Source of the DNA: Paenibacillus sp. VTT E-133291
GTDB taxonomy: Bacteria; Bacillota; Bacilli; Paenibacillales; Paenibacillaceae
Direction of reading: 5' to 3'
Length of the DNA: 64,000 nt
Assembly: GCF_002264395.1 (NCBI RefSeq)
Contig: NZ_NFVA01000021.1
Location: 1 to 64,000, forward strand
A model generated the notes under the pieces. The model was given only the letters and a program-made list of their open reading frames with translations, was not told the DNA's origin and ran no database searches. Numbering within the stretch: position 1 is the first letter of the stretch; each line of letters opens with the position of its first letter. Shown here piece by piece: positions 22,764 to 25,232 of the stretch. The position numbers were made by a program, and so were the translations under genes.

Positions 22764-22830
22764 GTATGCAGAAAAGGAAGCATTATTAGTGCGGTAAGCA
22801 TGAAATTAAATCATTTGGATGTGGAATCGT

Positions 22831-22859
22831 TTGACGTTGGCACTGTTATGTGTTAAATT
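22831..22859 (+). promoter_or_regulatory. Sigma-A promoter of a candidate ncRNA
   Basis: TTGACG (22831-22836), exactly 17 bases, TAAATT (22854-22859). It faces a 250-base stretch with no credible gene that ends in a terminator (23090-23117). Confidence 0.65.
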
Positions 22860-23117
22860 ACAGCTATCCTATAACTAAAGGGGAAATTTTGATGTCGGTG
22901 AACGTTCTTAACTAGCAATTTCATAACACTTGATTAGGAAGACTTTAGCAGGCTCGTCATGAGGCGATTACGTGCTTTATTTGCGTTCGTATTACGCAGC
23001 AGTCTGTTGTTCCTTACGGGTGGATGATTTAGTTAAGAACACACGAAGCGTCAAATGGCCTCTTTACGGCTGTTGTTCTCTTTGTAATTAACCGTGCTCT
23101 TATGCACGGTTTTTTTG
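22860..23117 (+). ncRNA. Candidate structured RNA, 6S RNA-like
   Basis: The promoter at 22831 and the terminator at 23090-23117 (AACCGTGC/GCACGGTT, then T run) delimit about 250 bases. Nested complementary blocks make a long interrupted rod: 22860-22864/23069-23073, 22877-22883/23059-23065, 22888-22892/23051-23055, 22904-22914/23030-23040 (11 perfect pairs), then an unpaired bubble (22915-22936, 23014-23029), then 22937-22944 with 23001-23013 and an apical hairpin 22983-22997. A rod with a central bubble is the layout of 6S RNA. It could instead be an attenuator of the MutS2-like gene. The only reading frame is seven codons (MSVNVLN). Confidence 0.5.
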
Positions 23118-23176
23118 TTTTTCGGCACCTGTTTTCAATTTCGGGAGCCTTAGAACCATAGGGGGCATCAGCATAA

Positions 23177-23221
23177 AAAGAAGGGCAAGGACTGCCATAG
23201 TGGCATTCTTTGCCCTTCTTT
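23177..23221. repeat. Strong hairpin before the MutS2-like gene
   Basis: AAAGAAGGGCAAGG pairs with CTTTGCCCTTCTTT and the inner TGCCA with TGGCA around a three-base loop. T-rich only on the minus-strand exit, so it would terminate leftward transcription best; no leftward gene is seen. Confidence 0.6.
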
Positions 23222-23276
23222 GCGTTAAGGAGAATTAGGTCTAAGCCAATAATAGAGATTTGAAGGAGGATTTGCT

Positions 23277-25232
23277 GTGAACTTACAAAGCTTAAGCACA
23301 TTGGAATACGAAATGATTAAAACTGAACTTGGTCGTCATGCAGTATCTTATGTAGGGAAAAAAGCTGTAGGAGAGCTTATGCCAATGACCTCTCTGCCGA
23401 CGATTCAAAGAGCAATGGAGGAAACTTCTGAAGCTAAAGAACTGCTGGAACGAGGATCGAGTGTACCCATTCCTTCATTAGAAGGCATTGAATGGATTAT
23501 GTCCTTAATGGGGACTGGATATTTGTATAGTGAGCAAGATTTCACTGCGGTTGCTACATTTCTTAAGAGCTGTAGTCAACTGCGCAAATATATGGCCTCT
23601 AAAGAACAGAGTGCTCCACGGATTGCAGCATATGCATCCTCGCTGATGGAGTTAAATGACGTGAGGGAGGCTATTGATCGCTGTATCCGTTTTGGTGCGA
23701 TTGACGATGGGGCAAGTAAGGGGTTAGAGCGAGTTCGTAAACGGATTGTAGTGGCTAAAGAACGTCTTCATAAAAAAATTGACGGAATTATGTCACGCCA
23801 TCAATCGATTTTACAGGAGAATATCTACAGCCAGCGGGGTGGGCGTTATGTTATCCCCGTAAAACGAGAATATCATAAGCAAATAAAAGGATCTGTTCTT
23901 GATCAATCCACAAGTGGACAGACGGTGTTTATCGAACCAGACGAGATCGCTGCCCTCCAGATAGAGCTTGATTTACTATTAGGGGAAGAGGCGCGAGAAG
24001 AAGCTGTAATCCTCAGCATGCTAACTAGCTTGGTAGAACAGGAACAGACCGCACTGCAGCTTAATATTGAGGTTACGGGCACCTATGATTTTATTTTTGC
24101 CAAAGCTAAATATGCGCGAACGCTGGGGGCATCTGCTGTTACTCTGAACGCGAGAGGATTTCTTAAGATGAACGGAGGCAGACACCCCATGCTGAAGGGG
24201 ATGATTCCGATCAATTTGGAGGTGGGTAAGGGCTATAAATCCCTCATTATTACAGGTCCGAATACAGGCGGCAAAACTGTAGTCCTCAAGACACTGGGGC
24301 TACTGACGATCATGGCTCAATCAGGGCTGTTAATTCCGGTCGAGGAGGGCAGCGAATTTACTGTTTTTACAGATGTGATCAGTGTAATCGGCGACGGACA
24401 AAGTTTGGCACAATCACTTAGTACGTTTTCGGCGCAAATGAAGAGTATTGAGGGGATGCTGAGAGATGCATCTAAAGGTGTGCTGCTGCTCATTGACGAG
24501 CTGGCGGCTGGTACGGATCCCGGGGAAGGCATTGCGCTCTCTATCGCGATTCTGGAAGAGCTGAGCCGTAAAGGGGCAAATATTATTGTTACCACACATT
24601 TTAATGAGTTAAAAGCCTTTGCTGCTGCAACGACTGGCTTTCAAAACGCAAGAATGGAATTCGACAAAGAAACACTACAGCCGTTGTATCGATTAACGAT
24701 TGGAGAAGCGGGGGAGAGTTACGCGCTGCAAATTGCAAAGAAGCTGGGGATACAGGATAACGTTATCAAGCGATCATGGGAAATCGTAGAGGCGCAGCAA
24801 CAAAGGTTGCAGAAAGGCGGCGGTGAGGCTTGGGGAAGTCTTTTTAGCAAAGAGGGAGAGAAGGGGCATGTTAAGCACGCCGTAGAGGCAAATGACAACA
24901 CAGAAGAGGAGGTTACTCCATCCGTCAGCAGCAAGGAGAAGCTGGTCGTCCAATTTGAAATTGGAGATGCAGTTGTGGTAACTTCACTCGGCCGGACAGG
25001 GATCGTGTATGAGAAGAGAGATCATTTAGGAATGGTTGGCGTGATGATCCAGAAGCAAAAGCTGAGAATTAACCATAAGCGGTTGAAGCCATATCTTTCA
25101 AAAGAGGAGTTATATCCGGAGGAGTATGACTTTGATATTATTTTTGAGAGTAAAGATACTCGTAAAAAGCGCAAATTGATGCAGCGTAAACATGTTGAGG
25201 GTCTAAGGATTACGCATAGAGAGGAAGAATAA
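23277..25232 (+). CDS. MutS2-like ATPase lacking the Smr nuclease domain
   Basis: 651 aa. N-terminal helical lever and clamp region (QENIYSQRGGRYVIPVKREYHKQIKG, DQSTSGQTVFIEP), then the MutS ATPase with Walker A TGPNTGGKT (about 325-333), Walker B LLLIDELAAGTDPGEG and the THFNELK switch. MutS2 proteins usually have about 780 residues and end in an Smr endonuclease domain. This one ends about 130 residues early, after a KOW-like stretch (VQFEIGDAVVVTSLGRTGIV). GTG start with GGAGG seven bases upstream. It probably acts on branched DNA or stalled ribosomes without cutting; that is inferred. A full-length MutS2 is expected elsewhere in the genome. Confidence 0.85.
   Translation: MNLQSLSTLEYEMIKTELGRHAVSYVGKKAVGELMPMTSLPTIQRAMEETSEAKELLERGSSVPIPSLEGIEWIMSLMGTGYLYSEQDFTAVATFLKSCSQLRKYMASKEQSAPRIAAYASSLMELNDVREAIDRCIRFGAIDDGASKGLERVRKRIVVAKERLHKKIDGIMSRHQSILQENIYSQRGGRYVIPVKREYHKQIKGSVLDQSTSGQTVFIEPDEIAALQIELDLLLGEEAREEAVILSMLTSLVEQEQTALQLNIEVTGTYDFIFAKAKYARTLGASAVTLNARGFLKMNGGRHPMLKGMIPINLEVGKGYKSLIITGPNTGGKTVVLKTLGLLTIMAQSGLLIPVEEGSEFTVFTDVISVIGDGQSLAQSLSTFSAQMKSIEGMLRDASKGVLLLIDELAAGTDPGEGIALSIAILEELSRKGANIIVTTHFNELKAFAAATTGFQNARMEFDKETLQPLYRLTIGEAGESYALQIAKKLGIQDNVIKRSWEIVEAQQQRLQKGGGEAWGSLFSKEGEKGHVKHAVEANDNTEEEVTPSVSSKEKLVVQFEIGDAVVVTSLGRTGIVYEKRDHLGMVGVMIQKQKLRINHKRLKPYLSKEELYPEEYDFDIIFESKDTRKKRKLMQRKHVEGLRITHREEE

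Follow-up and report, generated by a model that had tools for sequence, protein, structure and literature searches.

The interval from 22860 to 23276 of the window, i.e., of the whole 64,000-nucleotide stretch of Paenibacillus sp. VTT E-133291 DNA analysed here, is very probably the 5' leader of a mutS2-like gene and, as judged from sequence comparison, would act as a ribosome-mediated transcription attenuator. It most likely represents a new sequence family of such attenuators, one that would be common to two unrelated target genes. Comparison among relatives supports four parts of this reading: a short leader ORF, a long RNA rod that contains it, an intrinsic terminator (T1) and the linkage with the two genes.

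A previous, sequence-only reading had proposed 6S RNA or another structured RNA for this interval, and had named beforehand a role as a mutS2 attenuator as the alternative that would speak against 6S. It is this alternative that the comparative evidence favours; the wider proposal of a structured RNA stands, while the 6S part of it falls for want of an RF00013 match and with the genome's 6S locus lying elsewhere.

Organization of the leader in the window

The features of the locus are as follows, all on the forward strand (+).

22831..22859 (+), sigma-A-type promoter: -35 TTGACG, 17-nt spacer, -10 TAAATT, with TG ahead of the -10
22876-22883 (+), rod helix P1, 5' strand, including the leader Shine-Dalgarno sequence (window fold)
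22877..22883 (+), Shine-Dalgarno sequence of the leader ORF, AAAGGGG (AAGGAG in other clades; from sequence)
22889..22894 (+), rod helix P2, 5' strand, spanning the leader start codon (80.3% of cells paired)
22892..22915 (+), leader ORF MSVNVLN*, seven codons and stop, within the rod 5' strand
22904..22914 (+), rod helix P3, 5' strand GTTCTTAACTA, running from codon 5 to two bases into the stop (98.4% of cells paired)
23030..23040 (+), rod helix P3, 3' strand TAGTTAAGAAC (window fold and alignment of relatives)
23033..23045 (+), TTAAG...CACG, a candidate antiterminator strand that shares bases with the P3 3' strand (alifold)
23049..23054 (+), rod helix P2, 3' strand CGTCAA (window fold and alignment of relatives)
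23059..23066 (+), rod helix P1, 3' strand CCTCTTTA, partner of the leader Shine-Dalgarno sequence (fold of the window only)
23090..23117 (+), intrinsic terminator T1, AACCGTGC...GCACGGTT and then a T-run (hairpin 23090-23111, 8 bp)
23093..23102 (+), candidate antiterminator partner CGTG.TCTTA, overlapping the T1 5' arm and loop (alifold)
23180..23218 (+), T2, the second long hairpin, past T1 and ahead of the gene (from sequence)
23263..23269 (+), Shine-Dalgarno sequence AAGGAGG of the mutS2-like gene (from sequence)
23277..25232 (+), mutS2-like target gene, a Smr-less MutS2 paralogue of 651 aa with a GTG start

The promoter TTGACG-17-TAAATT had 9 of 12 consensus matches. Promoter-like sites between 22000 and 24000 were not more frequent than in shuffled sequences (two seen, 3.3 expected), and the promoter call therefore rests on conservation: the -35 TTGAC was kept in the aligned homologues except in one (L005), where it is masked. 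RNAfold analysis of 22860-23117 gave a minimum free energy (MFE) of -82.9 kcal/mol compared with -60.1 +/- 4.3 kcal/mol for 200 dinucleotide shuffles (z -5.29), none of which was as good (0/200). The rod is a succession of helices that includes an 11-bp perfect block, GUUCUUAACUA/UAGUUAAGAAC. The sigma-A promoter, the long rod with its perfect block, and the terminator with eight pairs followed by a T-run had all been described by the sequence-only reading, and each was borne out. The statement that no gene is present was not, as a conserved seven-codon ORF with its Shine-Dalgarno sequence lies in the rod 5' strand. Another leader ORF, lying in the 3' half, was also considered and was rejected, its frame being broken by indels in the homologue alignment.

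Comparison with 6S RNA

6S RNA is a rod with a large central bubble between two long stems. The leader resembles it in being a long rod with a promoter and a terminator, and might on this account be taken for a mimic of an open promoter, either 6S RNA itself or a diverged paralogue of it. This explanation has practically no chance of being correct. Internal loops within the MFE fold of the rod do not exceed 5 nt per side, and only a lopsided 10-nt/1-nt loop adjoins its outermost stem, so that the central bubble previously claimed was not confirmed: the fold has no large two-sided one. An Rfam scan of the window gave no family at gathering score except one tRNA, and the covariance comparison with the 6S model that had been suggested as a check produced no match, RF00013 being absent among the eight weak Rfam matches at E <= 10 in 22780-23270. 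One proper 6S locus is present in the genome, on another contig (L001, 1501-1692; G000:C199), where it scored 80.6 bits, above the cut-off of 46.4 bits of the RF00013 covariance model. Moreover, the leader is linked in cis to two specific downstream genes. On the grounds of the missing match, the 6S locus elsewhere and this linkage, 6S RNA was rejected.

Distribution of the leader and its linked genes

In a DNA search, the element was found in 42 of 60 relatives, belonging to 4 of 17 genera. The mutS2-like gene was located downstream in 30/30 homologous loci, even where rpsR was not found upstream. Since the mutS2-like gene is constant and rpsR is not, rpsR is taken to be no more than a neighbour at this locus, and the RNA to belong to the mutS2-like gene as its leader. 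The combined pattern of Shine-Dalgarno sequence and ORF was detected in 212 of 392 genomes of the order, 51 of 398 genomes of the class, and 5 of 398 genomes of the phylum sample, the last all in the family of the window; the reversed pattern, used as a control, gave 0 for every group listed in the three scans.

A scan of named genomes with the same pattern, blind to genes, gave at least 119 loci. The 80 loci with titles were mostly from Paenibacillus and Brevibacillus; Neobacillus mesonae, Geosporobacter ferrireducens and two Tissierella were, among others, also recovered. Among the 119 loci listed, the downstream gene was mutS2-like in 81, of the BpsA family in 25 and both in 8, and the 5 loci without either gene had <500 nt of DNA available. 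The first gene began 300-685 nt (median 348) after the ORF start. It could be argued that the leader transcript ended at the terminator (about 250 nt) is itself the functional product, a small RNA working in trans, and that any read-through is secondary; its own promoter, strong terminator and stable rod would all fit this. Such a role is nevertheless very unlikely, as the same two genes follow in 114/119 listed loci, with too little DNA for a decision at the other five, and the linkage holds whatever the upstream neighbour; in addition, the conserved Shine-Dalgarno sequence and ORF would be superfluous for a rod that acts in trans.

Both target genes were arranged behind one leader, as an operon, at locus L131, and the same arrangement with the leader was found in Brevibacillus panacihumi (L151). 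At another locus (L146), only the end of a mutS2-like gene was matched between the leader and the bpsA-type gene, which has the look of a deletion.

The search was also made from the gene. Among the matches listed for 119 genomes of the order, mutS2-like proteins (E <= 3e-125) were separated from those resembling full-length MutS2 (E >= 1.7e-113), and 20 upstream regions of mutS2-like genes in genomes without a pattern match were taken from the matches listed. The leader was present in 15 of these 20 regions in forms missed by the pattern, with ORF variants including MAEVVLN, MARVVLI, MSAGVLN, MSAVTLN, MFVGVLNS, MSGVVLN, MSEVVFN, and others. In the MARVVLI leader the partner strand compensates (GTTCTTATCT / AGATAAGAAC); in L297 codon 7 is ATC in place of AAC and the partner strand is altered to match. 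Two further regions, L300 and L304, had a rod of similar kind with a short ORF that has diverged: MSVAGFQQ[A/V]-stop seems to replace VLN-stop in two families, and its codons are predicted to be able to pair downstream too. Of the remaining three regions, one was without any sign of a leader, one (L292) had in its place a sequence that resembles an intron or retroelement, and one lay on a contig that was too short.

The mutS2-like protein was also encoded in four plasmid records, and the leader was present in both of the two that were inspected. The 690-kb plasmid of Cytobacillus spongiae, found through the protein only, carries a leader MLGVVLN-stop with its partner strand. The 115-kb plasmid pHD01 of Paenibacillus sp. 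IHB B 3084 (L308) carries the leader and the mutS2-like gene. A tyrosine-recombinase gene lies about 1 kb past the mutS2-like gene of pHD01, and the annotation of the 20 kb around this locus includes no resistance genes.

Conservation of the leader ORF and the rod

The leader ORF of the window reads ATG TCG GTG AAC GTT CTT AAC TAG (22892-22915), and together with its Shine-Dalgarno sequence it forms the most conserved block of the alignment. A Shine-Dalgarno sequence followed by M-S/L-V-x-V-L-N-stop was found in 29 of the 30 homologues, the 30th being masked by N; these homologues were collected by DNA search without the ORF pattern and are thus unbiased for the ORF. Together with the 15/20 gene-first regions, which are likewise free of this bias, they point to a conserved short leader ORF with its own ribosome-binding site, as would be expected of an attenuator of this type.

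After removal of sequences with >90% identity, 250 rows were reduced to 158 distinct leaders. Of these, 138 had TAA as the stop at codon 8, 12 had TAG and 4 had TGA; in the remaining 4 the stop was displaced, by one codon in 3; one-codon shifts were seen in MSVIVLNS, MSVVVLNS, and MFVGVLNS. The leader Shine-Dalgarno sequence was of the GGGG or GGAG type, and both it and the stop were kept despite base changes. Codons 5-7 and the stop position were the most conserved part of the ORF, although conservation across the 158 leaders is partly by construction, the loci having been picked in part with the ORF pattern. Codons 5-7 were nearly invariant, synonymous sites included, which is to be expected because these codons also form an RNA strand.

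The same near-invariance could be read differently. If the short ORF were fortuitous, a protein or ligand that binds the rod could control T1 in the manner of a riboswitch, and the conserved synonymous sites of codons 5-7 do indicate a constraint on the RNA sequence, with the reservation that the loci were partly chosen by pattern. This is, however, very unlikely, as the spacing of the Shine-Dalgarno sequence, the start and the in-frame stop survive changes of the Shine-Dalgarno sequence and the use of three stop codons, and the ORF itself survives one-codon stop shifts and a divergent form in two families.

The rod was compared in a structural alignment of 83 of the 158 distinct leaders. Pairing was retained in 98.4% of cells for P3, 80.3% for P2, and 92.0% for P2 and P3 together; with the partner strand slid by 1-3 columns as a control, 22-46% of cells were paired. 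Cells changed on both sides numbered 5 compared with 1.2 in shuffles. No excess was seen in these 83 leaders in the number of P2/P3 pairs with two-sided change (2 compared with 1.1 shuffled) or in pair types (12 compared with 11.2 shuffled). Covariation in P3 is thin because P3 is near-constant. An ORF-containing rod that would serve as an anti-antiterminator is supported by P1-P3 in the window and by P2 and P3 in the relatives.

Terminators and the candidate antiterminator

A T1-like hairpin followed by a T-run was present in 148 of the 158 distinct leaders, which argues for an intrinsic terminator ahead of the gene. A T2-like hairpin with a T-run was present in 122 of the 152 leaders with the T1 arm motif. 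In many relatives the conserved apex of T2 reads GAATGACGT..GTTCATTC, and a T-run comes after the hairpin.

The rod 3' strand is predicted to pair with the T1 5' arm, and the rod and T1 would hence be mutually exclusive with respect to this pairing. For constrained folding, 10 of the 158 leaders were dropped (2 without the 3' strand and 8 without T1), leaving 148; a slightly laxer T1 finder was used for the tests of strand complementarity, which likewise included 148 leaders. In constrained folding of the nascent RNA, T1-arm pairing rose only modestly in the stalled state, from 0.546 to 0.688, and shuffled spacers did nearly as well at 0.642. It went up by >0.2 in 59/148 leaders and down in 7. 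In the window itself, T1-arm pairing fell from 0.55 to 0.25 when the 5' part was masked, against the expectation for an antiterminator.

Complementarity between the T1 5' arm and the upstream strand was higher than in the controls: the best-helix score was 12.9 for own strands compared with 9.0 for shuffled and 10.5 for swapped ones, and the duplex energies were -10.6, -7.6, and -9.6 kcal/mol, respectively (148 leaders). The own duplex was better than the mean of its own swapped duplexes in only 94/148 leaders. The matching strand pairs vary by clade, e.g., ACGGAT/ATCCGT, GCGGAAAT/ATTTCCGC, ACAGC/GCTGT, and TACGGT/ACCGTG. The excess was clear for the T1 types ATCCGT, ATCCGC, GTCCGT, and TTCCGC (71/148 leaders) and absent for AACCGT, AGCCGT, and GACCGT (56/148 leaders). 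Among the latter types, AACCGT comprised 32 leaders, including the window, with a score of 11.2 for own and 10.8 for swapped strands, while AGCCGT comprised 16 leaders and GACCGT 8.

In the clade of the window, alifold of 19 sequences gave TTAAG..CACG with CGTG.TCTTA as an alternative candidate, a duplex of -7.5 kcal/mol in the window. The duplex energy in these 19 sequences was -8.2 kcal/mol for own T1s, compared with -9.8 for T1s of foreign clades and -7.6 for shuffled sequences; own T1s did no better than foreign ones. An association between upstream GAACAC and GTGCTCTT in T1 was also seen, with both present in 24 leaders, only one in 18 and 16, and neither in 90; the Fisher test (p 7e-7) ignores relatedness and makes this association only suggestive. 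An antiterminator is therefore likely in many relatives by these comparisons, and the case for it in the window's own clade is weak.

Proposed mechanism

The leader would work as follows. RNA polymerase would start near 22866, as predicted from the promoter, and a ribosome would enter the seven-codon ORF MSVNVLN. When the ribosome finishes fast, the ORF strand would pair with the distal strand through P1-P3. The rod so formed would be an anti-antiterminator, by which the antiterminator strand is locked away, T1 forms and transcription stops. When the ribosome is held on the ORF, most likely by an antibiotic that blocks initiation or elongation, the rod would not form, and the freed rod 3' strand would pair with the T1 5' arm, so that T1 fails; this antiterminator step is supported in part by the complementarity described above. 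Failure of T1 would allow the polymerase to read into the mutS2-like gene, or into the BpsA-type gene in relatives. The Smr-less, KOW-bearing MutS2 ATPase might then help to clear stalled ribosomes. We infer both the stalling of the ribosome on the ORF and this activity of the protein, and the inducers would probably be translation-blocking antibiotics.

Proteins encoded by the target genes

The 651-aa product scored 578.3 bits with TIGR01069 (cut-off 400) and 121.1 bits with MutS_V, and it aligned with Bacillus subtilis MutS2 (PDB 7qv3, 8r55) over residues 4-508 (E 3.3e-105). It differs from B. subtilis MutS2 in that a Pfam scan found no Smr domain; the product terminates after a KOW-like domain and a basic tail. 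The tail that stands in the place of Smr (24867-25229) is conserved as approximately SKENRKKRKLMxRKHVEGLxI in 27 aligned sequences. In an AlphaFold model of the C-terminus the barrel had a pLDDT of about 92, and the best PDB match by Foldseek was 8r55_z (E 9.7e-4, 59 columns, TM-score 0.39), 8r55 being B. subtilis MutS2 on a collided disome. A KOW domain, which the Pfam scan did not report in the product at E <= 0.001, is thus predicted from the model. A further MutS2 match in the genome, in a frame of 788 aa, is taken to be full-length MutS2.

According to the published account of B. subtilis MutS2 (PMC10897456), its ATPase splits collided ribosomes, and its loss renders the bacterium sensitive to chloramphenicol, tetracycline, and erythromycin. 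The same account reports that deletion of Smr strongly lowers ribosome binding, and its authors suggest that contact between KOW and uS10 may suffice for partial activity. Since B. subtilis MutS2 needs Smr for strong ribosome binding, the Smr-less paralogue may act differently.

The second target, represented by the protein of L073, matched PF01861, the C-terminal domain of BpsA, with 146.4 bits. This target also matches the solved BpsA (PDB 5xnc), a branched-chain polyamine synthase, and the GDDD motif, described as indispensable in the BpsA report (PMC12979288), was kept in the sequences examined. It differs from BpsA in being found in Bacilli and a few Clostridia and in having cysteine pairs near the end that look like a zinc ribbon; as judged from sequence, it is a putative enzyme whose activity may be of the BpsA kind. 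The first target is assigned by sequence to a translation-rescue family, and the two targets appear mutually unrelated.

The relationship of one target family to a branched-chain polyamine synthase, with its GDDD motif, raises the question of whether the attenuator responds instead to a metabolite, e.g., a polyamine, or to slower termination or elongation in general, the ribosome being held on VLN-stop. The strong conservation of codons 5-7 and the stop position would agree with this. We consider it unlikely, because the commoner target is related to an ATPase that splits ribosomes and is not known to have anything to do with polyamines, and because the nucleotides of codons 5-7 also serve the rod and their conservation need not imply a peptide signal.

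Relationship to known attenuators and biological meaning

Ribosome-mediated attenuation by antibiotics, the preferred reading of the leader, has its closest likeness in vmlR of B. subtilis, which encodes an ARE-ABCF protein. As described for vmlR (PMC9226507), a three-codon ORF lies inside an anti-antiterminator hairpin, and translation of the ORF was shown experimentally to be required for induction. In the model of its authors, a ribosome held there by lincomycin allows the antiterminator to form, and transcription reaches the gene (PMC9226507). The leader shares with vmlR an ORF in a 5' anti-antiterminator hairpin and an intrinsic terminator, with a candidate antiterminator, in the same order. 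The vmlR product is described as protecting ribosomes. The vmlR ORF is reported as MIN (MDN, MDK, and MRK also work), whereas the present leader has seven codons with a conserved VLN-stop, a longer rod, the T2 hairpin and targets that are not ABCF proteins.

Conserved short ORFs are also reported for the cplR, vmlR2, and lsaA leaders (PMC10201436), and in cplR the ORF is concealed within a 5' hairpin, after which comes a terminator. These leaders differ from the present one in the reported consensus ORFs (MR[I/M], MK[L/Q], and MAGN) and in the genes concerned (PMC10201436). Ribosome-mediated transcription attenuation in Bacilli is further reported for bmrCD of B. subtilis, where the leader controls a drug transporter (PMC4191407). 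No family of Rfam 15 matches the leader, and no account of it was found among the open-access papers listed in the literature searches.

Through regulation, the leader offers a hint at what two protein families, both poorly understood, may do. It is possible, if somewhat doubtful, that in Bacilli and some Clostridia the genes behind the seven-codon sensor ORF make up a regulon for translation stress. Drug-held ribosomes would then induce both targets, the one a dedicated MutS2 paralogue that splits ribosomes without a Smr domain and the other an enzyme that makes branched polyamines (or modifies ribosomes), and together these would form a resistance class outside the known ABCF, Erm, and HflX types. 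If the leader answers ribosome drugs, the MutS2 paralogue could be tested as an inducible factor of ribosome rescue, and a role in translation stress outside thermophiles would emerge for the BpsA-type enzyme. If the attenuator reading is true, a ribosome-rescue-like protein would be made only when ribosomes stall, e.g., in the presence of antibiotics.
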